39,050 bases of DNA. Source: Bacteroidaceae bacterium. Its GTDB lineage: Bacteria > Bacteroidota > Bacteroidia > Bacteroidales > Bacteroidaceae. Within the stretch, counting starts at the first letter, position 1. Each line of letters starts with the position of its first letter. The notes under the pieces were generated by a model, which worked only from the letters and a program-made list of their open reading frames with translations, did no database searches and was not told the DNA's origin. A program made the translations under genes and the position numbers. This document shows positions 10,985 through 31,330 of this stretch, piece after piece. Location of the stretch: assembly GCA_017940565.1 (NCBI GenBank), contig JAGAYH010000009.1:1-39050 (forward strand). The letters are read 5' to 3'.

Positions 10985-11042
10985 CGAAATCCGTTTTCGT
11001 TTTTCCTATATCCGTTTTCGTCATTTCTAACTCCGTTTTCCT
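10985..11042 (-). repeat. 21-bp-period motif array 1 (three units), upstream of tolC
   Basis: Read on the minus strand, three 16-mers lie exactly 21 bp apart: AGGAAAACGGAGTTAG (11042-11027), ACGAAAACGGATATAG (11021-11006) and ACGAAAACGGATTTCG (11000-10985). The 5-bp spacers are unrelated. They match the units in the arrays at 13994-14051 and 27152-27230. The array points toward tolC, beyond the terminator of the candidate small RNA. Confidence 0.85.
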
Positions 11043-11067
11043 CTCTCACGGGCTGGCCTCCGGGCAC

Positions 11068-11101
11068 GAAAAAAGGAAGAGCGCTTCACAGAACCCTTCC
11101 T
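11068..11101 (-). terminator. Rho-independent terminator of the candidate small RNA
   Basis: On the minus strand AGGAAGGG (11101-11094) pairs with CTCTTCCT (11081-11074), including one G-U pair, followed by TTTTTT. It lies inside a long non-coding region with a promoter box about 220 bp upstream. Confidence 0.75.
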
Positions 11102-11317
11102 CCCAAATAGTTAACTCAATATGCTTATGAAAAGACTCGTATCTTCCTACTTTAATGATTGCGCCGCCCTCCATGAGGCTTTGAAAAAAGCGTTGTGGCA
11201 AACCCGTTGCGAACGCATGGCCTAATTGTATCTAAAAATGGAAAGTAGCGGCGGCGACTCACGTCGGCTGTCAGGCGGGCTTCGTCTCTCGCTGAAACGT
11301 GTTCCTCGCGTCTGACA
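11069..11317 (-). ncRNA. Candidate structured non-coding RNA, about 250 nt
   Basis: A Bacteroidetes -7 box (TACTTTTG on the minus strand, 11328-11321) places the start near 11317, and a terminator ends at 11069. The predicted transcript opens at once with TGTCAG (11317-11312), which pairs with CTGACA (11274-11269). Further on, GCTTT (11191-11187) and AAAGC (11182-11178) form a hairpin. GCCGCC (about 11255) can pair with GGCGGC (about 11166), while the adjacent CTACTTT can pair with AAAGTAG (about 11151); these two pairings cross, as in a pseudoknot. I find no signatures of tmRNA, RNase P RNA or SRP RNA. A 6S-like RNA, or a terminated leader of the tolC operon, are alternatives. No TTG is seen at the standard distance, so transcription is unproven. 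Confidence 0.4.
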
Positions 11318-11405
11318 ATGCAAAAGTACGCCAAGTGTAAAAATCACGGAAGTTTTAACTTAAAAAATCCGCGAAAACTAAGGTTTATTATTGATTTTTG
11401 ATTTT

Positions 11406-13295
11406 TTAGTTACGATTTTCGCAACTATAGGCATTTCCTACGCTCTCCACGTACTCATAAAGCTGCCGATAGAAGCCATGACGGGTGAGCGTGGCGGCAT
11501 CGCCAAGTATAATCAGCTGGAAACGAGCGCGTGTCATGGCTACATTCATGCGCCGCAGGTCACTGAGGAAGCCTATTTGGCCATCATCGTTGGAACGTAC
11601 CAGACTGATGATGATGACATCGCGCTCCTGCCCCTGAAAACCGTCAACCGTGTTCACCGTGATAAGCTGGCGCATGGGGCGGAGCCGTTTTTCCTGCCGG
11701 ATAAGCTGGCGCAAGCGCTGCACCTGGGCCTTGTAGGGCGAAATGACCCCCACGTCGATGCCCTCCTCCACGATGCGCCCGATGCCGGTACGCTCCACCA
11801 GCGAACAAAGCGTCTGCAAGGTGAGCCGGGCCTCGGTCTCATTGACACGGCCATAGGTGTCGCCCACAAAATGTTCGCGGGCATCCATTCCAGAGGTGTC
11901 AATCCACTGCAGAGGCCGTTGCAGGTCAAGGATACTGGCCCGCTGGCGCACGCCGGGGGCGGCATGCACACGGCCGCCGTAGAACCATTGTGACGAAAAA
12001 CGCATCAGCGTCTCGTTCATGCGGTACTGTGTCTCCAGAAGGGTCACGGCCTGCGGCTTTTGCTCGACGATCGTTTCCATGAGCGTCTTGGCCAATCCTT
12101 GACGCGCCGCTTCCACACACTTGATGGTGGGCGGCAACTGCTGGTGGTCGCCGGCCAGGACCACACGGTCGGCCTTGCGTATGGCAATCCAGCAGGCGGC
12201 TTCGAGTGCCTGCGCCGCCTCGTCGATGAAGAGCGTGTGGTAGTGCTGGCCGAAGAGCAAGGGATTGCCGGCGCCGGCCAATGTACTGGCAATGACACGC
12301 ACGCTGGCGAAAAGGCTCTCGCGGATGCGCAGTTCCAGCTCCGTGGCGCGGTCGCGCAGGCGGGCAATCTTCTGATGGAAACTCTCGCCGCGGCGGGCAC
12401 CCTTGCTGTCGTAGAGCTGGCGGATGGTGCGGCGTACGGCCCACAGGTCGGTATAGTCGGGATGGTTTTCAAACTGGCGCTCGTAGGTGAACGAAAGCAT
12501 TTTGTCGTTCACGCGGGTAGGATTGCCTATCCTCAGCACGGGAATGCCGCGGTCCACCAGCTGTTCGCTTATCCAGTCCACGGCCATGTTGCTCTGCGCG
12601 CACACCAGCACTTGGCTCTCGCGGCGCAGCACCTCGTAGATGGCCTCGACGAGCGTGGTGGTCTTGCCCGTGCCCGGCGGTCCGTGGACCACGGCCACTT
12701 CCTTGGCACGCAGGATTTCGTTGACGGCACTCTCCTGCGTCACGTTGAGCCACGGCAGGGCCACGGGCATGGGCTGAAGCTTGTGCAGCGGTAGCGTGCC
12801 GTGGAAGGTGTCGCGCAACAGGGCCAGACGGTCGTCCCTGGCCTGGATGACAGCATCGAGGGCCTCGAACATGAGGCGGTAGGTCTGTTCGTCAAAATAG
12901 AGCTGCACGCCCAGGCGCTCGGCACGCTCGATGGCGGGCAGGGCTTCCGGGCCGGGCAGGGTAACGACCATGCGGTCGTCCTCCACATAGCTGACGGTGC
13001 AGAGCGAAGGCAGATAGGTGATTTGGCCGGAGCCGTCCTCGCGAAAGAAACACACGGGGCGGCCGGGTTCGAAGTTATGGGTGATTTCGTGGTCCTCAGT
13101 GCGGTAGATTTCAACGACCAGCCGGTTGAGCGAATTGTAGTAGCTGCGGCCGGTGCGCACGGGAAACCAGCACATGCCGCGCTTCACCTTGCGGCCGATG
13201 CCCATGGTCTGCGTCTCTCGGCGGAACTCGTCGCGCTCGTAGTCGTATTCCATGCGCAGGAGTTCCTTCTGCCGCAGCAGGGTCAATTTGCTCAT
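11406..13295 (-). CDS. Superfamily 1 DNA/RNA helicase (UPF1/DNA2/IGHMBP2-like)
   Basis: This 629-residue helicase carries the SF1 motifs in order: Walker A GPPGTGKT at 205-212, motif Ia near VLVCAQSNMAVD (229-240), Walker B/motif II as DEAAQ at 358-362, motif III GDHQQLPPT at 382-390, motif IV near LLETQYRMNETLMRF, motif V VNTVDGFQGQERDVI and motif VI RRMNVAMTRAR. This is the Upf1-like SF1B pattern; such proteins unwind nucleic acid 5' to 3'. The N-terminal 180 residues are a probable beta-barrel/stalk region. Cellular role unknown; DNA repair or RNA metabolism are plausible. It follows the small outer-membrane-like gene by 14 bp and is likely co-transcribed with it. I see no sign of a defence-island partner on this strand. 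Confidence 0.93.
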   Translation of the reverse strand: MSKLTLLRQKELLRMEYDYERDEFRRETQTMGIGRKVKRGMCWFPVRTGRSYYNSLNRLVVEIYRTEDHEITHNFEPGRPVCFFREDGSGQITYLPSLCTVSYVEDDRMVVTLPGPEALPAIERAERLGVQLYFDEQTYRLMFEALDAVIQARDDRLALLRDTFHGTLPLHKLQPMPVALPWLNVTQESAVNEILRAKEVAVVHGPPGTGKTTTLVEAIYEVLRRESQVLVCAQSNMAVDWISEQLVDRGIPVLRIGNPTRVNDKMLSFTYERQFENHPDYTDLWAVRRTIRQLYDSKGARRGESFHQKIARLRDRATELELRIRESLFASVRVIASTLAGAGNPLLFGQHYHTLFIDEAAQALEAACWIAIRKADRVVLAGDHQQLPPTIKCVEAARQGLAKTLMETIVEQKPQAVTLLETQYRMNETLMRFSSQWFYGGRVHAAPGVRQRASILDLQRPLQWIDTSGMDAREHFVGDTYGRVNETEARLTLQTLCSLVERTGIGRIVEEGIDVGVISPYKAQVQRLRQLIRQEKRLRPMRQLITVNTVDGFQGQERDVIIISLVRSNDDGQIGFLSDLRRMNVAMTRARFQLIILGDAATLTRHGFYRQLYEYVESVGNAYSCENRN

Positions 13296-13309
13296 GTTGT
13301 TGGAAACGG

Positions 13310-13873
13310 TTAGCGCCAGGACGACACGCCGGCTGAGACTTGGATGAAGACGTTCTGGAGCAATTTAAAGAAGGCCGAGGCACCCACGCTATAGTCGCGC
13401 TCCGGTCCGTAGCGGTAGGGGTAGAGGCCCTCGGGGCGCACCAGGTCCTTGTAGCCGGCCAACGAGAGCGTCACGCGGTCGTTGACTTCGTAATTGAGCG
13501 TGCCGCCGATGCCGGCCTGATTATAATGGTAACCGCCCCACTCTATGCCGGTAGTGGTGGCGCCGAGCGTATAGGTAAGTTGCTTGCCCAGCGGCGAGGC
13601 ATAGACCAGATTGATGTCGCGGCCGAAACCCACGCCCTTGGGGCTGTGATGGCCCAGACCGGTCATGGCGCTGAGCGAAATCTGCGCGTTCAGCCCCTGG
13701 TGGACGGGGAAGAAGTCGGCGCCGCCGGTCCACACGTCGGGCCGCACGGCAAAATAGGCCGAGGGACGGAGCCACCGGGAGGTATCGGTGCGCAAGGTGT
13801 CGCCCGACTCGCCGCGCACCGGACCGGAGAGCACGGTCAGCACTACCGACAGGAGGAATGCCACGCGTTTCAT
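13310..13873 (-). CDS. Small secreted, probably outer-membrane beta-barrel protein
   Basis: From the ATG at 13873 this is a 187-residue protein with a clear signal peptide (MKRVAFLLSVVLTVLSGPVRG). The mature part alternates polar and hydrophobic or aromatic residues in short strands (for example QLTYTLGATTTGIEWGGYHY, TLNYEVNDRVTLSLAGYKDL), as in outer-membrane barrels. I do not recognise a named family. The open frame runs 12 codons further upstream, but that stretch is the promoter. A matching TTG (13908-13906) lies exactly 19 bp before TAACTTTG (13886-13879), and the ATG follows the box by only 5 bases. It is the first gene of a two-gene unit with the SF1 helicase, an unexpected pairing. 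Confidence 0.75.
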   Translation of the reverse strand: MKRVAFLLSVVLTVLSGPVRGESGDTLRTDTSRWLRPSAYFAVRPDVWTGGADFFPVHQGLNAQISLSAMTGLGHHSPKGVGFGRDINLVYASPLGKQLTYTLGATTTGIEWGGYHYNQAGIGGTLNYEVNDRVTLSLAGYKDLVRPEGLYPYRYGPERDYSVGASAFFKLLQNVFIQVSAGVSSWR

Positions 13874-13878
13874 GCCGG

Positions 13879-13908
13879 CAAAGTTACGCAGTTCCGCCCA
13901 TTCAGCCA
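13879..13908 (-). promoter_or_regulatory. Consensus promoter implying a nearly leaderless mRNA
   Basis: TTG at 13908-13906, exactly 19 bp, then TAACTTTG at 13886-13879 on the minus strand: a full match to the Bacteroidetes consensus. The start codon is at 13873. With the usual box-to-start distance, transcription would begin about 2 nt before the ATG, leaving no room for a ribosome binding site. Confidence 0.8.
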
Positions 13909-13993
13909 AGAAAAGCCTATCAATTACACTTAAATGATGCTGATTTTCTTAAAAAGAACGTGTTGCCCCGAGCGGCGGCCACCGCTTTGAAAA

Positions 13994-14051
13994 ACGAAAA
14001 CGGCGTTAGTCTGGCCTAAATCGGATTTAGCCGTAACGAAAACGGCGTTAG
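13994..14051 (+). repeat. 21-bp-period motif array 2 (three units), upstream of the ATPase/DUF4435 pair
   Basis: Units ACGAAAACGGCGTTAG at 13994-14009 and 14036-14051 are identical and 42 bp apart. A diverged unit, CCTAAATCGGATTTAG, sits exactly midway at 14015-14030, giving a 21-bp period. The middle unit is itself a small palindrome (CTAAAT-CGG-ATTTAG). The array points toward the ATPase gene and ends about 40 bp before its TAAATTTG promoter box at 14092-14099. Confidence 0.85.
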
Positions 14052-14091
14052 TTTTTCCCATCCGGAAAGTGTCCATTTGAAAGAGAATGTG

Positions 14092-14099
14092 TAAATTTG
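14092..14099 (+). promoter_or_regulatory. Probable -7 box of the ATPase/DUF4435 operon
   Basis: TAAATTTG fits the TAnnTTTG consensus and lies 26 bp before the ATG at 14126. A TTG lies only 12 bp upstream, so the -33 element is uncertain. Confidence 0.5.
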
Positions 14100-14125
14100 C
14101 CGGAAAGTAGAAAAAAGTGTTGGTC

Positions 14126-14947
14126 ATGGAAAAGTTTGCCAATTACATCAGCAAGATTGAAATACAGAGCCTGTGGTCGGGCCACAAGCACGTGGTATGG
14201 GAGCTGCGCCCCGACGTGAACATCCTCAGCGGCGTGAACGGCGTGGGCAAATCCACCATCCTGAACCGCATCATCAGCCAGGTGCGCCACCGCACCGACG
14301 AGCTGCGCAACGGCGCCCTGCCGGGCGTGCACGTGGAGTTCTCACCGGCCGACGCCACGGGCATCCACTTCGACATCATCCGCAGTTTCGACAGCCAGCT
14401 CATCCCCGGCTCCATCCTGTCGAAGATTGGCGACGACGGGGTGCGCTCGGAGCTCGACTGGCGCCTCTACGAACTGCAGCGGCGCTATCTGGACTATCAG
14501 GTGAACGTGGGCAACCGCATGATAGCCCTGCTCACCAGCGGCACCCCCAATGCCCAAGCCGAGGCCACCAAGGTGGCGCAGGCCAAGACACAATTCCAAG
14601 ACTACGTGGACGAACTATTTGCCACCACACAGAAGACCATTGACCGCACAAGCAACGAACTGCGCTTCACGCAATGGGGCGAACAGCTGTCGCTCTACAA
14701 ACTGTCGAGCGGCGAGAAACAGCTGCTTGTCATCCTGCTCACCGTGCTGCTGCAGGACAGCCAGCCCTACGTGCTCTTCATGGACGAGCCCGAGGTGAGC
14801 CTCCACATAGAGTGGCAGGAGCGGCTCATCAACCTGGTACGTGACATGAACCCGAACGTGCAAATCATTCTGACCACCCACTCGCCCGCCGTCGTCATGA
14901 ACGGCTGGGCCGACGCCGTGACCGAAGTTTCCGACATCACTCAATAG
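14126..14947 (+). CDS. AAA-family ATPase, AriA-like partner of the DUF4435 protein
   Basis: Starting at ATG 14126 (MEKFANYISKIEIQSLW) this is 273 residues; a GTG three codons earlier is an alternative. Counted from that GTG, the ABC/OLD-type ATPase motifs are Walker A GVNGVGKST (39-47), signature LSSGEKQ (196-202), Walker B VLFMDEPE (219-226) and switch histidine TTHSP (253-257). Between Walker A and signature lies a short helical insert (about 115-185) in place of a long coiled coil. It ends 6 bp before the DUF4435 gene, so the two are one operon. A family ATPase plus a DUF4435 TOPRIM-like protein is the composition of the PARIS defence system (AriA + AriB), in which the ATPase holds the effector until a phage protein triggers release. 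Whether this is PARIS or a housekeeping OLD-like pair is not settled by sequence alone. Confidence 0.88.
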   Translation: MEKFANYISKIEIQSLWSGHKHVVWELRPDVNILSGVNGVGKSTILNRIISQVRHRTDELRNGALPGVHVEFSPADATGIHFDIIRSFDSQLIPGSILSKIGDDGVRSELDWRLYELQRRYLDYQVNVGNRMIALLTSGTPNAQAEATKVAQAKTQFQDYVDELFATTQKTIDRTSNELRFTQWGEQLSLYKLSSGEKQLLVILLTVLLQDSQPYVLFMDEPEVSLHIEWQERLINLVRDMNPNVQIILTTHSPAVVMNGWADAVTEVSDITQ

Positions 14948-14953
14948 CGGCAC

Positions 14954-16036
14954 ATGGCTAAACGGCTGGTCGACAACCTGACGACAAACTATCTGGAAGC
15001 AGCCCAACGGCTCAATTCCAAACATGCCCGCCACAAGATAGTGGCTTTCGTGGAGGGCTACGACGACATTCTGTTCTGGCGCAATCTACTGAGCACCATG
15101 GAAAACGACCGCTACTACTTTGAGGTCATGCTACCCTCGCGCACTTCGCTCCAGAAAGGCAAGAAGAGCGCTCTGATGAACACGCTCGGGGCGGGGTTGG
15201 GCCAGTACATGATAGCCTGCGTCGATGCCGACTACGACTACCTGATGCAAGGCGCCACCGACATATCCAACGTGGTGTGCAACAATCCCTACGTATTCCA
15301 CACCTACGCCTATGCCATCGAAAACTTCCAGTGCTACGCTCCGGCACTCCACAACGTCTGCGTCATGTCAACACTGAACGACCACCAGCTGTTCGACTTC
15401 GAGAGTTTCATGCTCGCCTATTCCAAACTGGTCTACCCCCTGCTGGTGTGGTCGGTGTGGAGCTACCGCCACGGCTACCATTCACAGTTCTCCATGGCCG
15501 ACCTGTGCGTCACCGTGGCCGTGACCGACTTCAACCTGCAGAATGCGGAGAATACATTGGAGCGGCTGGCCCACAAGGTCAATGTGAAGGTGGCCTGGCT
15601 GCAGCGCCAGTTCCCCCAGGCCAAAGGCGGCTACCAGCGGTTGCGCGACGAGCTGACAGCACTGGGGGTAACCCCGGAAACCACATACCTCTACATGCGC
15701 GGCCACGACGTGTTCGAGAAGGTCATCACCCCCATCCTCATAGAAGTGTGCAAGGTACTGCGCCGCGAGCGCGAACGCGAAATCCGACGGCTGGCCAGCC
15801 ACAGCACCCAGCGGCAAAACGAGCTCTCAGGCTACCAGCACGCCTCGGCCGAGCCCGAAGAGATGCTGCGCAAGCACACCGAGTACCATTCGGCCCCGCT
15901 CTATCTGCGCATACAGCAAGACGTGCGCGAGTTCTTGGCCCACATGGACGACCACCGGCCAAACGAACCGGTGCTGAAGGAAGAGAAACATTTCAAAAAA
16001 CCCAAACGGGCCTTCTACCCCCGGAAGACGTCATAG
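14954..16036 (+). CDS. DUF4435 (TOPRIM-like) protein, AriB-like
   Basis: This 360-residue protein opens with a DUF4435 domain. IVAFVEGYDDILFWRNLL (about 29-46) supplies the TOPRIM-type glutamate (E34), and MIACVDADYDYLM (about 86-98) supplies the DxD acidic pair (D91, D93), the usual metal-binding set of TOPRIM nucleases. A hydrophobic middle region (SFMLAYSKLVYPLLVWSVWS) and helical regions follow, ending in a basic tail (HFKKPKRAFYPRKTS). In PARIS, the DUF4435 protein AriB is the toxic effector, reported to act on tRNA; a similar nuclease role is inferred here. It follows the ATPase gene by 6 bp with no separate promoter, and ends at the terminator at 16049-16085. The acidic residues look intact, so there is no sign of inactivation. 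Confidence 0.85.
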   Translation: MAKRLVDNLTTNYLEAAQRLNSKHARHKIVAFVEGYDDILFWRNLLSTMENDRYYFEVMLPSRTSLQKGKKSALMNTLGAGLGQYMIACVDADYDYLMQGATDISNVVCNNPYVFHTYAYAIENFQCYAPALHNVCVMSTLNDHQLFDFESFMLAYSKLVYPLLVWSVWSYRHGYHSQFSMADLCVTVAVTDFNLQNAENTLERLAHKVNVKVAWLQRQFPQAKGGYQRLRDELTALGVTPETTYLYMRGHDVFEKVITPILIEVCKVLRREREREIRRLASHSTQRQNELSGYQHASAEPEEMLRKHTEYHSAPLYLRIQQDVREFLAHMDDHRPNEPVLKEEKHFKKPKRAFYPRKTS

Positions 16037-16048
16037 GACAAGAAAAAC

Positions 16049-16085
16049 AATCCCGCAAGCGACTCAGTTGCCTGCGGGATTTTTC
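16049..16085. terminator. Bidirectional terminator between DUF4435 and glycosyltransferase genes
   Basis: ATCCCGCA (16050-16057) pairs with TGCGGGAT (16073-16080), with an inner stem GCGAC/GTTGC around a TCA loop. TTTTT follows on the plus strand and TTGTTTTTC on the minus strand. It overlaps the last codons of the minus-strand glycosyltransferase gene. Confidence 0.88.
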
Positions 16086-16840: not shown

Positions 16841-16882
16841 TGCAATTTTCCGACAAGCCTTACTGCGTGAGCGCAGGGCGCT

Positions 16883-17770
16883 TTACTTTTTCTTGGTGGT
16901 TGTCGTCTTCTTCTTGGTCGTTGAGGTTTTCTTGGTGGTGGCCGTCTTCTTGATGGTGGCGGCAGGCTTCGGAGCCGGTTTGTAGTACTGTTCCTTCACC
17001 TTGGGCAGGTTCTTCTGGATGTCGGCGATGCGCTTGGCGTCGCTGGGGTGCGAGCTCATGATTTCGGGCACGCTTGCCGAACTGCTCGAGGCCATTTTTT
17101 GCCAGAAGGTCACGGCCACGTCGGGATTGTAACCGGCCATGCTCATCAGGATGAGGCCCATGTAGTCGGCTTCGCTCTCATGCTTGCGCGAGAAAGGCAA
17201 CATCACGCCGTACTGGGCTCCCAGGCCATACACCTGGCCGGCTATGGTCTGCGTGATGGCACTCTGGCCTGCCACGGCGGCTCCCAGGATGCTCGAGCCG
17301 TACTGCGCCAACACCTGCTGGCTCATGCGCTCGTTGCTGTGCTTGGCCACGGCGTGGGCCACTTCGTGACCGAGCACCACGGCCAGTTCGTCGTCGCTAC
17401 CGATGATTTTCATCAGGCCCTCATAGACCACAATCTTGCCGCCGGGCATGCAGAAGGCGTTGAGCTCGTCGCTCTGCACCAGGTTGAACTCCCAGGCAAA
17501 GTTCTGCACCTCGCTGGCCATGCCGTTGTTGTTCAGATAGCTCTCCGTGGCGGCGGCGATGGCTTTGCCCACACGCGTCACGGTGGCGTTCTGCGTCGTA
17601 TTGGACGACACTTTGGCCGAAGCCATATATTCCTTGTACGATGCCAGGCTCGAGGCCAACACTTCAGAGTCGGACACCAGGTTCAGCTGCTTGCGGCCCG
17701 TGATGGGCACACTGCTGCAACTCCACAGCAGCACGGCGGCGGCTGCAATCATTACCAAATACTTCTTCAT
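16883..17770 (-). CDS. M48-family metalloprotease lipoprotein with Lys/Thr-rich tail
   Basis: This 295-residue protein begins with a lipoprotein signal ending LLWSCSS (Cys 18), so it is likely anchored in a membrane facing the periplasm. The zinc site is HEVAH at 135-139, with the third ligand in HESEAD (Glu 200). The family (LoiP/BepA/HtpX-related) does quality control of envelope proteins. The last 28 residues are almost only Lys, Thr and Ala with Ser (KKTATTKKTSTTKKKTTTT...), an unusual basic tail that may bind nucleic acid, lipopolysaccharide or peptidoglycan. Its promoter is a perfect consensus. The glycosyltransferase gene follows 42 bp downstream. Confidence 0.93.
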   Translation of the reverse strand: MKKYLVMIAAAAVLLWSCSSVPITGRKQLNLVSDSEVLASSLASYKEYMASAKVSSNTTQNATVTRVGKAIAAATESYLNNNGMASEVQNFAWEFNLVQSDELNAFCMPGGKIVVYEGLMKIIGSDDELAVVLGHEVAHAVAKHSNERMSQQVLAQYGSSILGAAVAGQSAITQTIAGQVYGLGAQYGVMLPFSRKHESEADYMGLILMSMAGYNPDVAVTFWQKMASSSSASVPEIMSSHPSDAKRIADIQKNLPKVKEQYYKPAPKPAATIKKTATTKKTSTTKKKTTTTKKK

Positions 17771-17809
17771 GGTTCGTTGACGTTTAATTGTTCACTCTTA
17801 TAATGACTG

Positions 17810-17839
17810 CAAAGGTATGTTTTTTTCTTTAATCGCCAA
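17810..17839 (-). promoter_or_regulatory. Consensus promoter of the M48 protease gene
   Basis: TTG (17839-17837), exactly 19 bp, then TACCTTTG (17817-17810) on the minus strand, 40 bp before the ATG: a full Bacteroidetes consensus match. The spacer is rich in T and A. Confidence 0.8.
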
Positions 17840-17907
17840 AAAAAAACAGGCCATTTCACCCTGACGGGAAAGAAAAACTCCGCCGTGCGACCGGTTTCGT
17901 TTCTCAC

Positions 17908-18083
17908 AAAATTTTTTTGACAAACCGATGGCAGAGGTCCCATTTCGGCGTTCACAAGTGGGACTTCGGCGCGCAGAAACGGCGTTTCGAAAATCCGAGG
18001 CGCCGCTTCTGTCCGGGTACATTTGAGACCCGATGAAAATCAACGGATTAAAAAACCGCCGGAAAATTTCTGAAATTTTTTTA
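17908..18083 (+). repeat. Dispersed intergenic palindromic repeat, copy A
   Basis: Identical to copy B over about 47 bp at 17941-17987, including GCGTTCACAAGTGGGACTTC. Its edges share AAATTTTTTT, at 17909-17918 and 18073-18082 (164 bp apart). The internal palindrome pairs CAGAAACGGCG with CGCCGCTTCTG (one A-C mismatch). The right flank carries the family landmark GATGAAAATCAACGGATTA. It fills the gap between the sufB stop and the M48 promoter. Confidence 0.85.
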
Positions 18084-18090
18084 CCGATAC

Positions 18091-19536: not shown

Positions 19537-19546
19537 GCTGTTTTTT

Positions 19547-20107
19547 TTAATTGTTGACGCGGGCGCTCCGCTGATGCATGTCGATATAGAAGGTATCGGG
19601 CGCTTCTTCCTTGTGCCGGTCGGGGAGCAACGGACGCTTGCCTTCAAAGAACGGGCGGGCCAACGAGGTGACCGGTCCGTAGAGGTGGGATGCGTCGCGC
19701 TTCTCCTGACTGATGATGCCGAAAAGCTCCATGGCACAGAAAACGAAACTCAGCAGGACAACATACTTCAACACGCCGACCAACAGCCCCAGCGAAGAGT
19801 TGATGCACCCCAGGCGAAGCCACTTGAGCGACTTGGTCAGTACATTGGCCACAATGCCGAGCACCATCGGCACCACGACCCAGATGACGATGAAAGCCAA
19901 CACGTAGCCCAGATACTTGGCTACACTCGGATTTCCCGAAAGGACAGGAGCCAGGTATTCACCGAACTTGTCGTAAAACTGGTAGGCAATGAGCAGGCCG
20001 ACAAAGAATCCGGCCATGGAAACCACCTCCTTGAGCAGTCCGCGGCGCCAGCCCTGCCAGGCCCCCCATACAAGAATAACCAATATGACAATATCTACGG
20101 CTGACAT
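19547..20107 (-). CDS. CvpA-family inner membrane protein
   Basis: This 186-residue protein has four predicted membrane segments ([18 protein letters not shown] near the start, then [40 protein letters not shown] and [20 protein letters not shown]) and the family's early GWRRGLLKE stretch. CvpA proteins were first linked to colicin V export and later to envelope or purine-related functions; their molecular role remains unclear. It sits 6 bp after infB and 10 bp before sufB, a placement recognised in other Bacteroidales, so it is expressed with translation genes. The C-terminal 60 residues are charged and probably cytoplasmic. Confidence 0.9.
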
Positions 20108-20113
20108 GGTCCG

Positions 20114-23050
20114 TTAGAGTTTCTGTTTCACTTCTATCTCGCGGAAGGTTTCAATGGTGTCGCCTTCCTGAATGTCGTTATAGTTCAGCAGGCTGATACC
20201 GCACTCGAAGTCCTGGTTCACTTCCTTGACATCATCCTTGAAGCGCTTCAGGGCATTGATTTCGCCGGTAAACTTCACGATACCGTCGTGAATGAGGCGG
20301 GCCTTGTCCGTACGGCTAACCTTGCCGCTGACCACGAAGGCACCGGCCACGGTACCCACCTTACTGATGCGGTAAACCTGACGCACTTCGAGCGTGGCCG
20401 TGGCTTCTTCCTTGATTATCGGTTTGAGCATGCCTTCCATGGCCGTCTTCACGTCGTGGATGGCATCGTAGATGATGGAATACAGACGGATGTCGATGCC
20501 TTCCTGCTCGGCTTCTTTACGGGCCTGGGCACTGGGACGTACCTGGAATCCGATGATGATGGCCTGCGAAGCGGCAGCCAACGAGACATCGCTCTCGGTA
20601 ATCTGACCCACAGCCTTATGGATGACACTGACAGCAATCTTCTCGGTGGACAGTTTGATGAGCGCGTCGCTCAAAGCCTCCACAGAACCGTCCACATCGC
20701 CCTTGACGATGATGTTGAGTTCCTGGAAGCCACCTTGTGCTATACGGTTGCCTATTTCTTCGAGCGTGGTACGGTGGCTGGTGCGCAAGCTCTGCTCACG
20801 CTGCAGCTGCAGTCGTTTGTTGGCGATGTCGCGAACTTCCTGTTCCGTCTCCATCACGTGGAAGGTGTCGCCTGCCTGAGGGGCACCGTTGAAGCCCAGT
20901 AGCGTGGCAGCCTTGGCAGGGCCTACACTCTTGATGCGCTTTCCACGCTCGTCGTTTAAGTCACGCACACGGCCGAAGCATGTTCCGGCTATCACGTTGT
21001 CGCCTACACGCAGCGTTCCGTTGCTTACCAGAACGGTGGCTACGTAGCCGCGGCCCTTGTCAAGCGACGACTCGATGACGGTACCCGTGGCACGGCGGTT
21101 GGGATTGGCCTTCAGCTCGAGCATGTCGGCTTCGAGCAGTACCTTTTCCAACAGTTCATTTACTCCGATACCCTTCTTGGCCGAAATGTCCTGACTCTGG
21201 TACTTGCCGCCCCAGTCTTCCACCAGGAAATTCATGTTGGCCAGCGTTTCCTTGATCTTTTCAGGATTGGCCGTTGGCTTGTCCACCTTGTTGATGGCAA
21301 ACACAATGGGCACATTGGCCGCCATGGCATGATTGATGGCCTCTTTGGTCTGAGGCATCACGTCGTCGTCGGCGGCAATGATGATAATGGCGATGTCTGT
21401 AACTTGGGCACCACGGGCACGCATGGCTGTGAAGGCCTCGTGACCCGGTGTATCCAGGAACGTGATGTGACGTCCGTTCTCAAGTTTCACGTTGTAAGCA
21501 CCGATGTGCTGCGTAATGCCACCGGCCTCGCCGGCAATCACGTTGGAGTTGCGTATATAGTCGAGCAACGAGGTTTTACCGTGGTCCACATGACCCATGA
21601 TGGTTACAATCGGGTCGCGCGGTTCGAGATCTTCCTCATTGTCTTCCTCTTCATGCACAGCCTCAGAAACGGAAGCACTCACATATTCGGTCTGGAAGCC
21701 GAACTCATCGGCCACCAGATTGATGGTTTCAGCATCCATGCGCTGGTTGATGCTAATCATCATGCCGATGCTCATGCAGGTGGCGATAACCTTGGTCACC
21801 GGCACGTTCATCATGCTGGCCAGCTCGTTGGCCGTCACAAATTCCGTCAATTTCAGAATCTTGCTTTCACGGCTTTCTTCGTTGAGGCGTTCCTCGGTGG
21901 CAGCACGCACTTGGTCGCGCTTCTCGCGGCGGTATTTGGCACTGTTGGCAAAACTCTTTTTGCTGGTCAGACGTGCCAGGGTCTTTTTCACTTCATTGGC
22001 CACATCTTCGTCCGACACCTGCGGCTTCAGGGCGATGTCGCCCTTCTTTTGCTTCTTGTTGCCACGCTGCTGATTTTGGTTGCGCTGATTGTTCTGGTTG
22101 CCGAAGCCTTGTTTGTTTTCCTGGCGGCCGTCGTCGGTCACTTTCTTGGCTTCGGTCGTGATGTCCACCTTGCTGCCTTGCACGCGGTTGCGCTTTTTCT
22201 TGCGTTGTCCTGAGCCGGGCTGCCCTCCTGCCGGAGCGGCTTGACGGGCTTTTTCCTCACGTTCCTTGCGCTTTTCTTCTTTCGTCTTTTTGCGCGGACG
22301 CATGTTCTCGTTAATCGACGAGAGGTCTATGGTACCGAGCACTTTGGGTCCGGATATGGTGGGGGTTGTGCCCAGGCGGAACACTTCTTCGGCTGGTTTG
22401 GTTTCTTTCTTGTCGGCTGTTTCCGTTTGGGGTGCCGGAGCCTCGGCCTTTGGCGTTTCTGCAGGCGTTTCCTTGGCCTTGACAGGTTCTGCTGTTTTCA
22501 CTTCAGCCTGGGGAGTCTCAGGCTGCGGTTTCGCCGGGGCAGATGCGGCTTTGGCTGCGGCTGGCATTTCCTGTTTGGGCTGGTCTTCGGCCTTGGCGGG
22601 TTCTTTCGGCTGGGCCGGTGCCGTCTTGGGCGTTTCCTTCTTGGGTTGCTCCTTAGTTTTTGCCTCTGTGGCGGCCGGTTTTGGCTTTCCGGTTTTGGCT
22701 GCCGGCTTCGGCTTGGCTTCCAAGTCTATCTTGCCCACGGTTTTGAACTGGGGTTTTATTTCATCGGGCACTTCGGTTTTAATGACCTCTTGCGCCTTCT
22801 TTTCCTTGGCAGCCGCTTTTTCCTTGTCGCGTTTTACCTTTTCCTGTTCTTTTTCGGTCTGGCGCTGCAACACGGTGTTGCGAAGGTTCTTGTCCGTGCT
22901 GAAGCGGTCAACCAGCAATTCATAGGCATCGTCTTCTATCTTGGTGTTCGGATTGGCGTCCACCGTGACGCCTTTCTTCTCCAGATAGTCCACGAGCGTT
23001 TGCAGGCCAACGCCCAATTCTTTAACTACCTTGTTCAGTCTGACTCCCAT
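20114..23050 (-). CDS. infB: Translation initiation factor IF-2
   Basis: This 978-residue protein opens with an IF2_N domain ([20 protein letters not shown]). A long linker at about 80-380 is rich in Lys, Ala, Pro and Glu, with Gln/Asn-rich [16 protein letters not shown]. The GTPase core follows: G1 GHVDHGKT (about 486-493), G3 DTPGHE (about 532-537), G4 NKVD (about 586-589), then the beta-barrel domain II, domain III and the C-terminal fMet-tRNA-binding domain ([19 protein letters not shown]...). It brings initiator tRNA to the small ribosomal subunit. It begins 6 bp after nusA. Long N-terminal linkers are common in Bacteroidetes IF-2. Confidence 0.98.
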
Positions 23051-23056
23051 ACGTTG

Positions 23057-24319
23057 TTATTCTTTCTCAAATTCTTCGTTCAAAATTCTCAGTACCCGGT
23101 CAATGGTTTCTTCTTCCAGGTCGGTTTTGGCTATGAGTTCCTCGCGCGGAGTGCCCAGCACGTCACGGGCTGTCTTCATGCCCACGCCCTTGAGGGTGTC
23201 GATGATCCACTGGTCGATTTCGTCGTCAAATTCCTCCAGATAGATATCGTCGAGCACGTTGTCTTCTTCCGATTCGCGGTAAACGTCGATGAGGTAGCCT
23301 GTCAGCATGCTGGCCAGTTTGATGTTCAGACCGCCGCGGCCGATGGCCAGCGACACTTCCTTGGGCTGCAGATAGACTTCTGCCTTCTTGGCCACATCGT
23401 CCAGATAGACATTCGACACTTTGGCGGGGCTCAAGGCGCGCTGGATGTAGAGCGAGATGTTCGACGTGTAGTTCACCACGTCAATGTTTTCATTGCGCAG
23501 TTCACGCACGATACCGTGCACGCGGCGTCCTTTCACACCCACGCAGGCGCCGACGGGGTCGATGCGGTCGTCGTAGCTCTCCACGGCCACCTTGGCGCGT
23601 TCGCCAGGCACACGGGCGATGCCCTTGATGGTGATGAGACCGTCGTTGATTTCGGGCACCTCGGCTTCGAGCAGGCGTTGCAGGAAGGCGGGAGCCGTGC
23701 GGCTCAGATAGATTTTCGGACTGTTGTTCAACATTTCCACCTTGTCGATGACGGCGCGCAATATGTCGCCCTTGTGGTAGAAGTCGCCCGGTATCTGCTG
23801 CGACTTGGGCAGGATGAGCTCGTTACCCTCTTCGTCAAGCAGCAGCATTTCGCTCTTCCATATCTGATAGACCTCGGCGCCTATCACTTCGCCCACGCGG
23901 TCCTTATACTTATTATAAAGCGAGTCGTGTTCCAGCTCCAGCACCTTGCCGGCCAGGGTCTGGCGCAGCGTCAGGATGGCGCGGCGGCCGAAGGCCGTGA
24001 AGTCTATCGGTTCACTCACGTCCTCGCCCACTTCATAGTCTTCGTCGATGCGCTGGGCGTCGGTCAGACAAATCTCCTTGTTGTCGTCCTTCACCTCGCC
24101 GTCGGCCACCACCACGCGGTTGCGGTAGATTTCGCAGTCGCCCTTGTCAGGGTTGATGATGATGTCAAAATTCTCGTCGCTGCCGAATATCTTGGCCAGC
24201 ACGTTGTGGAAACTCTCCTCCAGAACGCCCACCAGCGTGGCGCGGTCTATGTTCTTCGTCTCCTTGAATTCGGCGAAGGTGTCAATGAGACTCACCGTCT
24301 CTACTTTTTTCTTTGGCAT
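23057..24319 (-). CDS. nusA: Transcription termination/antitermination factor NusA
   Basis: This 420-residue protein has the NusA order: N-terminal RNA-polymerase-binding domain (MPKKKVETVSLIDTFAEFKE... to about 125), S1 domain (about 130-205, GEVIGAEVYQIWKSEMLLLD), then KH1 and KH2 (about 220-345), which include RIDPVGACVGVKGRRVHGIV and VSLAIGRGGLNIKLA. A short acidic segment and a helix-hairpin-helix-like end (LKGVGMKTARDVLGTPREEL) follow. NusA modulates pausing, termination and antitermination. In E. coli it represses its own operon through terminators in the leader, which makes the hairpin before rimP relevant here. It lies 67 bp after rimP and 6 bp before infB. Confidence 0.97.
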   Translation of the reverse strand: MPKKKVETVSLIDTFAEFKETKNIDRATLVGVLEESFHNVLAKIFGSDENFDIIINPDKGDCEIYRNRVVVADGEVKDDNKEICLTDAQRIDEDYEVGEDVSEPIDFTAFGRRAILTLRQTLAGKVLELEHDSLYNKYKDRVGEVIGAEVYQIWKSEMLLLDEEGNELILPKSQQIPGDFYHKGDILRAVIDKVEMLNNSPKIYLSRTAPAFLQRLLEAEVPEINDGLITIKGIARVPGERAKVAVESYDDRIDPVGACVGVKGRRVHGIVRELRNENIDVVNYTSNISLYIQRALSPAKVSNVYLDDVAKKAEVYLQPKEVSLAIGRGGLNIKLASMLTGYLIDVYRESEEDNVLDDIYLEEFDDEIDQWIIDTLKGVGMKTARDVLGTPREELIAKTDLEEETIDRVLRILNEEFEKE

Positions 24320-24386
24320 GATATTTATTTCTTTTTATTATTTTCTTCCTTCAATCTGCTTCACCCCGTCGGGTCGGGACTCTGGT

Positions 24387-24851
24387 TCAGAACTTGATGA
24401 GATATTTCACCGACTTCACGTCGCCGTAGCCCATCGTCACGTCCTCGTCCACCAGTTTGGGGCGCTTGGCGCCTTCGGGCTTCACCTTCGTCTGCACCGT
24501 CAGCGTAAAGCCATCGTCACCGGCCGCCTTAAGCACGCCTTTCAGCTTCCGGCCGTCCAGCGTCAGGGCCTCCACCGGGTCGCCCACATGGTTCACATAC
24601 TGCTGCTTTACCTTAAAGGGCTGCCCTATGCCGGCACTGCCCACTTCCAGTTCATAGTCCTCCTGGTCGCGGCTCAGCCGTTCCTCGATGAACTTGCTCA
24701 GCTCCACGCAGTCGTCAATCCATACGCCGTCCTTATGGTCTATTTCCACCACAATGCGGTCGTCTGCACTCACCGTCAGGTCGGTCAGGAAATACTCCTT
24801 GCCCGACAGCCACTCGTCAACAATGTTTTTTACGATGTTCTTGTCAATCAT
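24387..24851 (-). CDS. rimP: Ribosome maturation factor RimP
   Basis: From the ATG at 24851 (MIDKNIVKNIVDEWLSGKEY) this is 154 residues, the normal size. The frame extends 63 codons upstream through the promoter and leader, and that part is not RimP-like. The N-terminal domain carries VVEIDHKDGVWIDDCVELSK and the family-typical YELEVGSAGIGQPFKVKQQY, where most relatives read LEVSSPGLDRPL; the second domain is an Sm-like barrel with LTLDGRKLKGVLKAA. RimP helps assemble the 30S ribosomal subunit. It heads the rimP-nusA-infB-cvpA-sufB run, 67 bp before nusA. The leader holds a terminator-like hairpin. Confidence 0.94.
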   Translation of the reverse strand: MIDKNIVKNIVDEWLSGKEYFLTDLTVSADDRIVVEIDHKDGVWIDDCVELSKFIEERLSRDQEDYELEVGSAGIGQPFKVKQQYVNHVGDPVEALTLDGRKLKGVLKAAGDDGFTLTVQTKVKPEGAKRPKLVDEDVTMGYGDVKSVKYLIKF

Positions 24852-24872
24852 TTTTTCACTTCTGTATGTGAT

Positions 24873-24908
24873 TAAAAAAATGAGAAGCCTCTCGTGCGGG
24901 CCTCTCAC
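24873..24908 (-). promoter_or_regulatory. Terminator-like hairpin in the rimP-nusA-infB leader (candidate attenuator)
   Basis: On the minus strand TGAGAGGCC (24907-24899) pairs with GGCTTCTCA (24889-24881), nine pairs with one G-U, followed by seven T residues (24880-24874). It lies after the promoter (24953-24923) and before the ATG at 24851. So it would stop most transcripts before rimP unless overridden, and the G-U makes it functional only in the operon direction. Confidence 0.75.
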
Positions 24909-24922
24909 TCCTCTAACAGGTG

Positions 24923-24953
24923 CAAAATTAGCATTTTCCCCCGTTACCACCAA
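24923..24953 (-). promoter_or_regulatory. Promoter of the rimP-nusA-infB operon
   Basis: TTG (24953-24951), 20 bp, then TAATTTTG (24930-24923) on the minus strand; good Bacteroidetes consensus. Predicted start about 24919, giving a leader of about 68 nt that includes the terminator-like hairpin. Confidence 0.78.
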
Positions 24954-25025
24954 GTTTTTCGCAAAAAAACTTCCGTTTTTGCCCATTTTTACCCCGCAAT
25001 CGGCCTGCACGCCCCTGCCAATTAC

Positions 25026-25204
25026 AAAAAATCTTGACAACCGGGAGAAGGAGGCCGGATTTCGGCGTTCACAAGTGGGACTTCGGCGCGCAGAAACGGC
25101 GTTTCAAAATGACGAAACGCCGTTTCTGTTTTGGCATATCTGAGAGCGGATGAAAATCAACAGATTACAAAACCGCCGGATTTGTGGTGAAAAATCTTGA
25201 CAAA
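25026..25204 (+). repeat. Dispersed intergenic palindromic repeat, copy B (best direct repeats)
   Basis: This copy has perfect 14-bp direct repeats, AAAAATCTTGACAA, at 25027-25040 and 25190-25203 (163 bp apart). The internal palindrome has 15-bp arms, CAGAAACGGCGTTTC (25086-25100) and GAAACGCCGTTTCTG (25109-25123), with an 8-base loop. It shares the stretch GCGTTCACAAGTGGGACTTC with copies A and C. It lies between the rimP promoter and the terminator of the M56/TonB gene. Confidence 0.88.
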
Positions 25205-25236
25205 AACCACCGGGCGACTCTCACGAGCCGCCCGGT
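25202..25236 (-). terminator. Terminator of the BlaI-M56/TonB operon
   Basis: ACCGGGCG and CGCCCGGT (25209-25216 and 25229-25236) form an 8-bp stem with an inner CTC/GAG. TTTTT follows on the minus strand (25206-25202), 50 bp after the stop codon. It abuts the right end of repeat copy B. Confidence 0.8.
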
Positions 25237-25285
25237 CCACTGAAACTAAAAGTAGACTTCCGTCTATGGGTGTAACACTCTTTGC

Positions 25286-26611
25286 TTATTGCAATTTGAA
25301 GAGCACGGGCAGGGCCATCTGCATATCCACCGCCTTGCCGTTCTGGCGGCCGGGCGTAAACTGTTTGTCCTTCAGCAGCGAGACGACGCGCAGGGCCTCC
25401 GCGTTCATACCGTGGTTGCTGGTTCGCGGGTCACCGGCCTTGAAGTTGCAGGCCTTGCCCTCGGCCGTCACGGTGAAGAAGACGGTAACCATGCCCTCGG
25501 CTTTGGCATCGAGAGCGGCTTTGGGATAGCGCAGGTTTTCAGCAATGAAACGCTGCATGGCGATGTTGCCGCCCGGGTACTGGGGCAGAACATCGCCCTT
25601 GCGGGGCTTGACCGTGCCGTTGGCCTTGGCCTTCTGCGGCGACTTGTAGGCCGCACGGCGCACGGCAGACGGCGTGGCCTTGGCCTGCGCCTTCTTGACC
25701 ACGCTCTGGGGCATGGCAGCAGACGGCAGAGCCTCCGTGGCAGCGGCACGCAGCGTGCCGCCACACACCAGCAGGGCGGCGGCCACGGGCGCCAGCAGGG
25801 CATATTTGAGCGCGGCCGCACGACGGGTTCTGGTTTTGTTCATCATGTGAATCCTTTCTTTTAAGGGTGAAACATTGAAATTATTACATAGATTGGTCGC
25901 GACACTATGTCGGGATTGGACGAGCAGGGCCAACTGGTAGTCCTGCCGGTTGACAGAAGCCGAGAGCGCCTCTCGGTCGGCTTCGAATTCATGCAGTTTG
26001 CGGAGTTCGCACAAGGCGAGCCACACACAGGGATTGGGCCACAGCAGGGCGCACTGCAGGAGCATCCAGACGATGTCGCCGGAGTGGCCCAGACGCATGT
26101 GCACCTGCTCGTGGCGCACGATGGCCTCGCGGCGGGGCGACGTGAGCACTTCCTCGGGCAGACACAGGCTGTGGAAGAAGGAGAACGGCTGCGTACCCTC
26201 AGGCAAGACGCGGCAGGTCAGCCCGTCGGCCGTGCGGACCACGGGACAGCGGCGGATGTAGCGCAGCGTGGCCACAGCCTGCACCGCCAGCCGGAGGAGC
26301 AGCAGGAGACTGACGCCGAAATAGACGCAGGCCAGCCCGTGGAACCATTGGCCACCGCCACTGCGCGCGCCGACCACTACCGCCGGCAACCACCGTGTGG
26401 CCAGCGCTTCTGGCAAGGCGCCGTCCGTGGTTACGGGCAACCCCTCCCACTGACTCAGCAAGGGAAACGCCACCGCCGCGAGCGACAGGCCGAGCAACAG
26501 CTTCCGACGCAGGCGGAAAAACGTGTCGCGGCCGGCCAGCAACCGGTATGTGGCATAGCCCAGGAGCCACACGGCGTGGATGAGGACGAAGGAGACCAGT
26601 AAGGTGTTCAT
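25286..26611 (-). CDS. M56 (BlaR1-type) metallopeptidase fused to a TonB C-terminal domain
   Basis: This 441-residue membrane protein has N-terminal segments (for example VSFVLIHAVWLLGYATYRLL, FHGLACVYFGVSLLLLLRLA), then the M56 zinc motif HEQVH in IVRHEQVHMRLGHSGDIVWM. A further segment near RRAAALKYALLAPVAAALLV leads to a Lys/Ala-rich stretch. The last 90 residues are a TonB C-terminal domain (RFIAENLRYPKAALDAKAEG..., ending ALPVLFKLQ). BlaR1/MecR1 peptidases sense a signal and lead to cleavage of the BlaI repressor. The TonB fusion is seen in several Bacteroidetes relatives; its cargo is unknown. Its start overlaps the blaI stop by 4 bases (ATGA). No beta-lactamase gene is nearby. Confidence 0.88.
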   Translation of the reverse strand: MNTLLVSFVLIHAVWLLGYATYRLLAGRDTFFRLRRKLLLGLSLAAVAFPLLSQWEGLPVTTDGALPEALATRWLPAVVVGARSGGGQWFHGLACVYFGVSLLLLLRLAVQAVATLRYIRRCPVVRTADGLTCRVLPEGTQPFSFFHSLCLPEEVLTSPRREAIVRHEQVHMRLGHSGDIVWMLLQCALLWPNPCVWLALCELRKLHEFEADREALSASVNRQDYQLALLVQSRHSVATNLCNNFNVSPLKERIHMMNKTRTRRAAALKYALLAPVAAALLVCGGTLRAAATEALPSAAMPQSVVKKAQAKATPSAVRRAAYKSPQKAKANGTVKPRKGDVLPQYPGGNIAMQRFIAENLRYPKAALDAKAEGMVTVFFTVTAEGKACNFKAGDPRTSNHGMNAEALRVVSLLKDKQFTPGRQNGKAVDMQMALPVLFKLQ

Positions 26612-26979
26612 AAGGCGTCGTTTTCCTGTTGTTTAATGAGTTGTACCAGTTCTTCGAGTTCAGAGGCGGAGAGATGCTCTTCGCGCACGAAGAAGGAGAC
26701 CATCTCCTTGTAACTGTTGCCGAAATAATTGCTCACCATGCGGCGCAGACCGTGGCGCTTGTAGTCGGCCTCGCTGACGGCTGGGGCATAGAGATAGGTG
26801 TTGCCCACGCGGCGGGCCCGCACGTAGCCCTTGCGCTCCAAGTTCTTCACCACCGAAGCCAGCGTCGTGTAGGGCGGCACCGGCTCGTCGTACTGCTCGA
26901 GCAGGTCTTTCACTGTGCCGTCGCCCAAAGCCCACAGCCGGCGCATGGCAGTTTCTTCCTGTTGGGTAAGATGTTCCAT
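26608..26979 (-). CDS. BlaI/MecI/CopY-family transcriptional repressor
   Basis: This 123-residue winged-helix repressor matches the BlaI family in length and layout. It starts MEHLTQQEETAMRRLWALGD; the recognition region reads YTTLASVVKNLERKGYVRAR and the wing VGNTYLYAPAVSEADY. The C-terminal helices (about 80-120) should dimerise. BlaI-type repressors bind a palindrome in their own promoter and are inactivated by proteolysis triggered by the partner M56 peptidase. The operator at 27018-27036 overlaps its promoter, so it is autoregulated by inference. It is the first gene of the pair, coupled to the M56/TonB gene. Confidence 0.94.
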   Translation of the reverse strand: MEHLTQQEETAMRRLWALGDGTVKDLLEQYDEPVPPYTTLASVVKNLERKGYVRARRVGNTYLYAPAVSEADYKRHGLRRMVSNYFGNSYKEMVSFFVREEHLSASELEELVQLIKQQENDAL

Positions 26980-27013
26980 TCCGATAATTTTATTTGTTCT
27001 ACGATTTTCGATG

Positions 27014-27043
27014 CAAAATTACGAACATTTCGTAATTCTCCAA
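27014..27043 (-). promoter_or_regulatory. blaI promoter with a palindromic operator
   Basis: TTG (27043-27041), exactly 19 bp, then TAATTTTG (27021-27014) on the minus strand. A perfect palindrome with 8-bp arms, ATTACGAA (27018-27025) and TTCGTAAT (27029-27036), and a CAT spacer overlaps the -7 box and half the spacer. A bound repressor would block RNA polymerase, as expected for a BlaI operator. Confidence 0.85.
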
Positions 27044-27151
27044 AAATAAATAAGATATTTTTTGGAATTTTTTTTGCCCTTCATTGGTTGCTTCCGGAAC
27101 ACCAAGAGGAGCACTGACGGGCCCGGCGCTCATCAACCGTGACGGGTGAGA

Positions 27152-27230
27152 ACGAAAACGGAGTTAGGCCGAACGAAAACGGAGTTAGACGGCACGAAAA
27201 CGGAGTTAGACGGCACGAAAACGGAGTTAG
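27152..27230 (+). repeat. 21-bp-period motif array 3 (four near-perfect units), upstream of rhaB
   Basis: Four identical 16-mers, ACGAAAACGGAGTTAG, start at 27152, 27173, 27194 and 27215, exactly 21 bp apart, with 5-bp spacers (GCCGA, ACGGC, ACGGC). The array points toward rhaB and stands about 205 bp before its start codon and 130 bp before its promoter box. It is the best-preserved of the three arrays. Confidence 0.92.
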
Positions 27231-27360: not shown

Positions 27361-27368
27361 TACATTTG
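27361..27368 (+). promoter_or_regulatory. Probable -7 box of the rha operon
   Basis: TACATTTG fits the Bacteroidetes -7 consensus, about 68 bp before the rhaB ATG; no matching TTG is seen at 19-21 bp, consistent with activator-dependent transcription. Confidence 0.5.
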
Positions 27369-31043: not shown

Positions 31044-31119
31044 CCCGGAGGGAAAGAGCGATAGACCATAGTTGCCCGTCAGGTCAAGGCAAAAGCAGTA
31101 CCCGGAAAAGGATGGGTAT

Positions 31120-31297: not shown

Positions 31298-31330
31298 CAC
31301 TTTCCGCGAGGCAGAGGCTCCTGCGGAAAT

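Follow-up and report, generated by a model that had tools for sequence, protein, structure and literature searches.

Helically phased arrays of pseudo-palindromic boxes between transcription units in a Bacteroidaceae genome

The stretch of DNA analysed here (the window) comprises positions 1 to 39,050 of contig JAGAYH010000009.1 from a Bacteroidaceae bacterium (assembly GCA_017940565.1), whose genome, designated G000, has 1.79 Mb in 56 contigs and is 63% complete. The non-coding DNA of this genome carries short arrays of pseudo-palindromic boxes, which occur in strict helical phase, in a preferred number and order, and between transcription units; in many, but not all, of the sampled relatives the geometry is kept while the letters are lineage-specific. 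The favoured reading, to which a probability of about 45% is given, is that the arrays are ordered, cooperative docking elements for a putative protein at transcription-unit boundaries, with an architectural role. The arrays came to notice through an original prediction, made from the letters of the window, which described a 16-bp motif repeated every 21 bp upstream of three unrelated operons and suggested that it was regulatory.

Structure of the boxes and arrays

All ten units described in the original prediction, in arrays of three, three and four, are present in the window at three or fewer mismatches, while 100 shuffled sequences contain a mean of 0.76 such units and at most three. The genome-wide search that it had proposed finds the exact pattern ACGAAAACGGNNTTAG at 93 sites in G000, and the reversed control at none. 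The 21-bp period is correct, but the division into a 16-bp unit and a 5-bp spacer is not. The true unit of this family (family 1) is a 15-bp pseudo-palindrome (7-1-7), C-K-AAA-W-C / S / G-W-TTT-M-G, followed by a 6-bp spacer. The start-to-start distances of 16-mer pairs are 21 bp for direct, 22 bp for convergent and 20 bp for divergent pairs; these values agree if the unit is centred on base 9 of the 16-mer, all of them then corresponding to a centre spacing of 21 bp. A column profile of 92 exact units has two more units to the left and two to the right, in exact steps of 21 bp, with a third faintly visible, and contains no conserved flank beyond the phased boxes.

The phase was assessed in a 435-kb sample of G000, consisting of the window and loci L284-L303, which were selected by position, on contigs with previous motif matches; it partly overlaps a set of 72 arrays that is biased because it was gathered via the exact seed. 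Of the 91 distances below 200 bp between strong boxes (>10 bits) in this sample, 90 are 21 bp (62 times), 42 bp (26 times) or 63 bp (twice), and the remaining one is 104 bp. The exact step, and with it the two-turn spacing of the units, thus holds in this sample. Many of the lone box matches are due to chance, because 59 of the 157 boxes have no partner at 21, 42 or 63 bp and the reversed control gives 41 matches.

Three is the usual number of boxes. In all fetched G000 sequence there are 80 three-box, 16 four-box and 14 two-box arrays (n=110), and in the 435-kb sample 29, 9 and 8, respectively (n=46), from which about 190 arrays per genome are extrapolated. All three totals count copies of the ~175-bp element (see below), which is also scored by the matrix, trained as it was on motif-chosen loci, and they vary with the matrix thresholds.

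The two halves of a box are typically unlike, an A half (CGAAAAC) being joined to a B half (CTAAATC, CTAACTC or others). Among 126 non-seed boxes, 78 are A/B (52 expected), 33 are B/B (45 expected) and two are A/A (15 expected), while 13 contain an unclassed half. The boxes are also ordered within the array. This is seen in 32 arrays whose three boxes either point alike or include a symmetric one in the middle. Their first, middle and third boxes have C as second base of the left half in 7, 1 and 20 cases, a pattern matched by 0 of 5000 permutations, and GC at the centre in 3, 0 and 10 cases (p=0.0014); two other box features show no order in these triplets (p=0.28 and 0.55). In the commonest pattern all three boxes point in the same direction (22 arrays), and the phase is kept when the orientation changes. 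Only 5 of 74 pairs of neighbouring spacers are identical, most spacers within an array being different, and one motif is common to 66 clusters at separate places.

Placement relative to genes and promoters

The arrays sit outside promoters, between transcription units, regardless of gene direction. With genes called by a codon-score script, 83 box-pair matches in the 435-kb sample lie outside and five inside the 370 kb of called coding sequence, in agreement with the non-coding location described earlier. Of 115 array/start pairs, 85 have a promoter motif of the consensus TAnnTTTG in the interval from array to start, so that the arrays do precede promoters as first described; the motif counts are 96 in forward and 10 in reversed orientation, with one motif inside arrays and 12 beyond them. 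The distance from array to promoter motif ranges from -4 to 276 bp in 78 pairs of an earlier set, without a fixed value.

Gaps of at least 200 bp carry family-1 arrays in 16 of 46 co-directional, 12 of 29 divergent and 6 of 17 convergent cases. There is no bias towards upstream gaps in the 435-kb sample, convergent gaps being occupied as often as the others (6/17 versus 28/75, p=1.0). When any 21-bp array is counted, 52 of the 92 gaps hold one and convergent gaps are the richer (14/17 versus 38/75, p=0.03). Orientation is equally unbiased: of the exact units in co-directional gaps, 21 have the direction of the genes and 19 the opposite one (p=0.87), and of those in divergent gaps 22 point toward the nearer start and 12 away from it (p=0.12). 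The original prediction had taken a fixed orientation toward the downstream gene as its strongest hint of function, and had named the lack of any upstream or orientation preference as the result that would refute it. Since both preferences fail, its regulatory inference fails as well, and the consistent orientation of the window's three arrays is a coincidence of three cases.

Arrays and neighbouring genes in the window

The arrays of the window and their promoter motifs are as follows.

4300-4357, plus strand: 21-bp array of ACAAAACGGCGCCTCGGCG-type boxes; BLAST match to the ~175-bp element in a 45-bp end stretch (4364-4408) only
10985-11042, minus strand: three-box family-1 array, one mismatch in each unit; ~210 bp upstream of a TolC-like gene (9308-10774, minus)
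13994-14051, plus strand: three-box family-1 array in the divergent gap preceding the AriA/AriB-like pair
14092-14099: promoter motif TAAATTTG, between the 13994-14051 array and the AriA/AriB-like gene
17905-18088, plus strand: copy of the ~175-bp element, ends set by eye
25027-25204, plus strand: copy of the ~175-bp element, boxes at 25050, 25071, 25092 and 25113; upstream of rimP-nusA-infB
27152-27230, plus strand: array of four family-1 boxes, units exact and near-identical
27361-27368: promoter motif TACATTTG, belonging to the gap of the 27152-27230 array and the rhaB-like gene
31119-31300, minus strand: copy of the ~175-bp element in a convergent gap, ends set by eye
38680-38829, plus strand: diverged copy of the ~175-bp element, 73.5% identity over 151 bp

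The three arrays first reported are real, but they are only the strongest; further ones lie near 4300, 17905, 25027, 31119 and 38680. All seven window gaps longer than 200 bp contain some 21-bp-phased array, a count that leaves aside the gap of the tandem tRNA-Asn genes and one apparent gap which is an uncalled open reading frame (19547-20107). The middle box of the 13994-14051 array, with three mismatches, is the symmetric box CTAAATCGGATTTAG. The 27152-27230 array lies in a divergent gap with a gene for a BlaI-type repressor (PF03965) on one side and the rhaB-like gene on the other. The ATPase/DUF4435 pair at 14117-16036 (plus strand) matches AriA (E 1e-60) and AriB (E 5e-60) in PADLOC, and is taken to be an anti-phage defence system of the PARIS type. 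The genes adjoining the arrays are mixed, from housekeeping to sugar use to defence. Rfam finds two tRNA in the window and no other family, and the idea that viral contigs carry the arrays was rejected, as a direct-pair pattern has no exact match in those of IMG/VR.

The window also contains repeats that are separate from the arrays. The tandem tRNA-Asn gene pair at 34060-34233 lies inside a perfect direct repeat of 95 bp, and 18-21-bp tandem repeats occur within coding DNA at 3184-3227 and 16886-16960, in a DUF285/dockerin protein and an M48 peptidase.

The dispersed element of about 175 bp

The second family is a dispersed repeat, about 175 bp long, whose four boxes keep the 21-bp phase; 27 copies were aligned from the searched G000 DNA. 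Conservation is highest in the boxes (0.83-0.92), lower in the spacers (0.69-0.86) and in the two flanks (0.62 and 0.71), and falls to 0.49 outside the element. A AAAATTTTGACA-like sequence is found at both ends in the same direction, forming a direct repeat. Unlike the family-1 arrays, this element has conserved flanks, and it contains a strong inverted repeat. The 4300-4357 array is probably a far-diverged copy.

Arrays in related genomes

The comparison with related genomes, also proposed in the original prediction, recovers the geometry in many of them but hardly the letters. The exact motif is absent from 17 of 18 other genomes of the genus and has two sites in the remaining one, the sister species G018. 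A two-unit pattern allowing at most one mismatch and either box type has 114 forward matches in G000, while the 398 other genomes of the family have at most two each, with matches in 15 that are partly at the control level. A scan of genome contigs with the direct-pair pattern gave no matches, records of this genome or of very near ones having possibly been left out. The family-1 motif is nearly confined to G000.

Sampled relatives nevertheless contain intergenic arrays built from palindromes of their own: an excess at lag 21 is found in G012, G001, G007, G014 and G018, and a smaller one in G002; an excess at lag 22 is found in G005, where it alternates with 21, and in G020, which belongs to another genus. 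G023 and G031 were left out of this analysis, the 20 kb sampled from each (in G031 partly N) being too little. Examples of such palindromes are TGGAACGTACGTTCCA in G001 and CTAAAGC/GACTTTG in G007, whereas in G017 (loci L117-L131) there are 42/43-bp intergenic arrays, nearly every one with its own palindrome. No lag excess is seen in E. coli K-12, of which two 50-kb pieces were used.

The same geometry appears around nusA in 80 named loci, the best 80 of 536 relatives, where 62 clusters fall at lag 22, 30 at lag 21, 18 at lag 20 and 17 at lag 23, and other lags have a mean of 8.3 clusters and a largest value of 18. The box unit is 22 bp in many Prevotella and 21 bp in G000. Palindromic boxes exceed those of shuffled sequences in the named set (29% versus 9% of 92 clusters), in G000 (34% versus 6% of 58) and in six genomes of the genus (30% versus 6% of 76); in G020 and G041 together the values are 10% versus 6%, for only 10 clusters. 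In two Prevotella-type genomes, two 22-bp arrays with different motifs adjoin in the same gap (L264 8787-9008; L278 2192-2488).

By NusA, the closest relatives in the named set are an uncultured Prevotellaceae genome (96%) and a Bacteroidaceae metagenome-assembled genome (83%), and the closest named species is Alloprevotella rava (76%). The 96% relative belongs to G399, in which the matches lie at contig coordinates identical to those in G018. The G+C content of the sampled species of the genus ranges from 0.44 to 0.56.

Possible functions of the arrays

Phased non-coding arrays of this kind are probably bound by protein. In the favoured reading, usually three pseudo-palindromic boxes of 15-17 bp, exactly two helical turns apart, would form one docking element. 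Either an oligomer or three dimers of a single DNA-binding protein would bind there cooperatively, the bound units adjoining along one helix face. The likeliest job of such a nucleoprotein patch would be to mark or insulate the boundaries of transcription units rather than to control particular promoters. Lineage by lineage, the box letters would be replaced, and the reader protein presumably with them, under an unchanged geometry. The phase, the triplet count, the order, the unlike halves, the placement, the constraint on the box cores and the geometry without shared letters all point, if tentatively, to docking. The core constraint is seen in a six-box orthologous array of Prevotella (L264/L278), where differences affect 2 of 90 positions in the cores and 7 of 42 elsewhere (p=0.005); the array counted is the first of two adjacent ones, the second being too diverged to align. 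In an array shared by Prevotella jejuni and P. histicola such a contrast is not clear by eye. A wider form of the proposal is less likely than not. In it, the boundaries of transcription units throughout a Prevotellaceae chromosome would make up one docking grid with a fast-evolving reader, the geometry of about three palindromes two turns apart being kept across much of the family and the letters replaced even between sister species. Co-evolving centromere or PRDM9-type sites would be its parallel.

Several observations weigh against docking. No reader protein was found, the two families that fit the geometry being either absent (IclR) or unchanged in their helix (Lrp). The excess at lag 21/22 is absent from the samples of G017, G009 and G041. 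The test of core against spacer constraint comes from the single array pair L264/L278. The family of about 175 bp is a plain dispersed repeat, which hints at copying. The spacers, described earlier as having no conserved sequence, do vary, but within limits: an A-rich and a CGCG-like class keep reappearing, with 283 identical spacer pairs between arrays where 46 are expected, and this recurrence hints at some copying or a secondary preference.

Array turnover is a further point of this kind, being fast in four orthologous gaps compared with G018, even though most aligned stretches of this sister species have 79-93% nucleotide identity. One gap (L046/L316) has in-phase arrays in both species, those of G018 consisting of six boxes that mix both families. 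In the second (L005/L317) the first box, with one base different, and its spacer are common, and the array ends within the second box. The third (L038/L318) has the other array family in G018, and the fourth (L007/L317) has no array there. The same four-box array is found in L022 and L032, in a 98%-identical stretch of G018 that may be a contaminant or a transfer. Nor is array position generally conserved in more distant members of the genus, since the syntenic gaps L106, L155 and L134 have no array by eye and the G007 counterpart (L148) of the gene left of the L038 array has an upstream array of another motif. Loci for rhaB occur in 10 of 19 genomes of the genus, and the rhaB gap of G017 (L125) is without a visible array.

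Nearly as likely as docking is a selfish dispersed satellite, similar in kind to the repetitive extragenic palindromic sequences and bacterial interspersed mosaic elements (REP/BIME) or to BrickBuilt, spread by a putative copying enzyme that recognises the phased boxes and tolerated only off promoters. The boxes and their phase would then reflect the need of the enzyme and not a function for the host. The lineage-specific burst of 93 exact sites in G000, the several families per genome, including the ~175-bp element (27 copies in what was sampled), the turnover between sister species, the recurring spacers and the indifference to gap type are all consistent with this. On the other side, family-1 arrays lack common flanks and terminal inverted repeats, their spacers mostly differ while the boxes are conserved, the RAYT family is missing from G000 and 14 other genomes of the genus, and the core of one old orthologous array is constrained. 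A single origin, as a plasmid-iteron reading would have it, is implausible because some 46 arrays are spread over 435 kb; no search for an initiator was made.

It is improbable that the arrays are ordinary operators of one transcription factor, defining a regulon and acting on the neighbouring promoter. Triplets of pseudo-palindromes do resemble operator clusters, and the promoter motif is usually found between array and start, but convergent gaps are occupied equally, orientation is unbiased, the distance to the promoter motif has no fixed value and the neighbours in the window are functionally mixed. An element acting at the RNA level, namely a terminator or processing hairpin formed by opposed boxes, has still less in its favour. 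Some arrays do have opposed boxes, and the ~175-bp element has its inverted repeat, but the three boxes of the commonest pattern point the same way and can form no strong hairpin, the arrays are mostly outside the leader because promoters usually intervene between array and gene, and Rfam gives only tRNA in the window. Simple tandem repetition by replication slippage is refuted for most arrays, even though a few neighbouring spacers are identical and the 27152-27230 array resembles a recent duplication, since the phase persists where boxes are oppositely oriented, the spacers of an array mostly differ and one motif recurs in clusters at different places.

If the arrays are docking sites, common gut bacteria would have a large, overlooked layer of chromosome organisation with a species-specific code, and the list of arrays could serve as bait for finding the reader protein. 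If they are selfish, they would be a class of repeats whose strict helical phase reveals the grip of the copying enzyme on DNA. In either case, many Prevotellaceae genomes contain such arrays, and predictions of promoters and regulons there can be led astray by them.

Candidate proteins

IclR regulators were rejected as readers, being found in none of the 19 genomes of the genus; the control for this search gives a match in 8 of 14. Lrp/AsnC (PF01037) is present in 17 of the 19 genomes, with a single copy in 16 and two genes in G011; none was found in G007 and G018, and the G000 copy is at C8:7097-7315. It was rejected because the helix stretch SRAVVHQR is identical in 17 sequences (G000 and 16 others) although the motif changes. 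Of 16 other genomes, only four have a lag-21/22 match of at least 12 upstream of lrp. In G000 an array lies 264 bp upstream of lrp, yet 12 of 29 divergent gaps carry family-1 arrays anyway. The Y1 transposase RAYT (PF01797) was rejected as the driver of copying, being absent from G000 (at its 63% completeness) and present in 4 of the 19 genomes.

Comparison with known systems

The operators OR1-OR3 of phage lambda are, like the arrays, three ordered pseudo-palindromes with unlike halves and cooperative binding; they differ in forming one phage locus, in their less regular spacing and in being bound to promoters.

Cellular regulators offer a similar geometry. IclR regulators are reported to occupy palindromes in tandem, the centres of which are separated by 18-22 nt (PMC8222616), and Lrp sites are clustered with a spacing of two or three turns (PMC2995911). 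The operator clusters of both families consist of pseudo-palindromes on one face of the helix, with centres two turns apart and cooperative binding of oligomers (PMC2995911, PMC8222616), whereas here there are about 190 arrays without promoter bias. A CRISPR (clustered regularly interspaced short palindromic repeats) array was rejected, since boxes of 15-17 bp with recurring 6-bp spacers differ from the CRISPR pattern, in which the repeats have 24-48 bp (size range from PMC3733652) and are separated by unique spacers about as long.

REP/BIME sequences are short palindromes, intergenic, lineage-specific and present in many copies, singly or in groups of mixed orientation (PMC3733652). The arrays are likewise palindromic, intergenic, multi-copy and lineage-specific, but differ in their exact 21-bp phase, ordered triplets and unlike halves and in the absence of RAYT from G000. 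The self-complementary REP stem-loop with a GTAG or CGTC tag (tag as defined in PMC3733652) is not found in the arrays, whose halves are mostly unlike and whose consensus ends in TTAG.

BrickBuilt, a miniature inverted-repeat transposable element of Porphyromonas gingivalis, is intergenic and has 23-nt head-to-tail units, a leader, a tail and terminal inverted repeats, in 19 copies (PMC4596501). It belongs to the same bacterial order, and shares with the arrays an always intergenic location, units near two turns and many sites. Family-1 arrays differ in having no conserved flanks, variable spacers, a 21-bp unit and about ten times more sites; no terminal inverted repeats, leader or tail are seen around them in the 92-unit profile, and the unit of 23 nt is replaced by one of 21 bp here and, in many Prevotella, of 22 bp. 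The Prevotella intermedia/nigrescens repeat (PINSR) is a lineage-specific intergenic sequence of 188 bp with one consensus and about 180 copies (PMC4755523). In location, copy number and restriction to lineages within Prevotella it is comparable, and is nearer to the ~175-bp element than to the family-1 arrays; phased boxes are not described for it in the available part of that paper.

Among openly licensed PMC papers (CC0, CC BY, CC BY-SA) on Prevotella/Bacteroidetes repeats or Lrp geometry, the parts available describe no such arrays, and this includes PMC4596501, PMC4755523, PMC5771137, PMC3733652, PMC4060949, PMC8222616 and PMC2995911. The arrays have their geometry in common with known operator clusters and their way of life with repeats of the REP or BrickBuilt type, while the combination of exact helical phase, ordered triplets and lineage-wise replacement of letters looks new.

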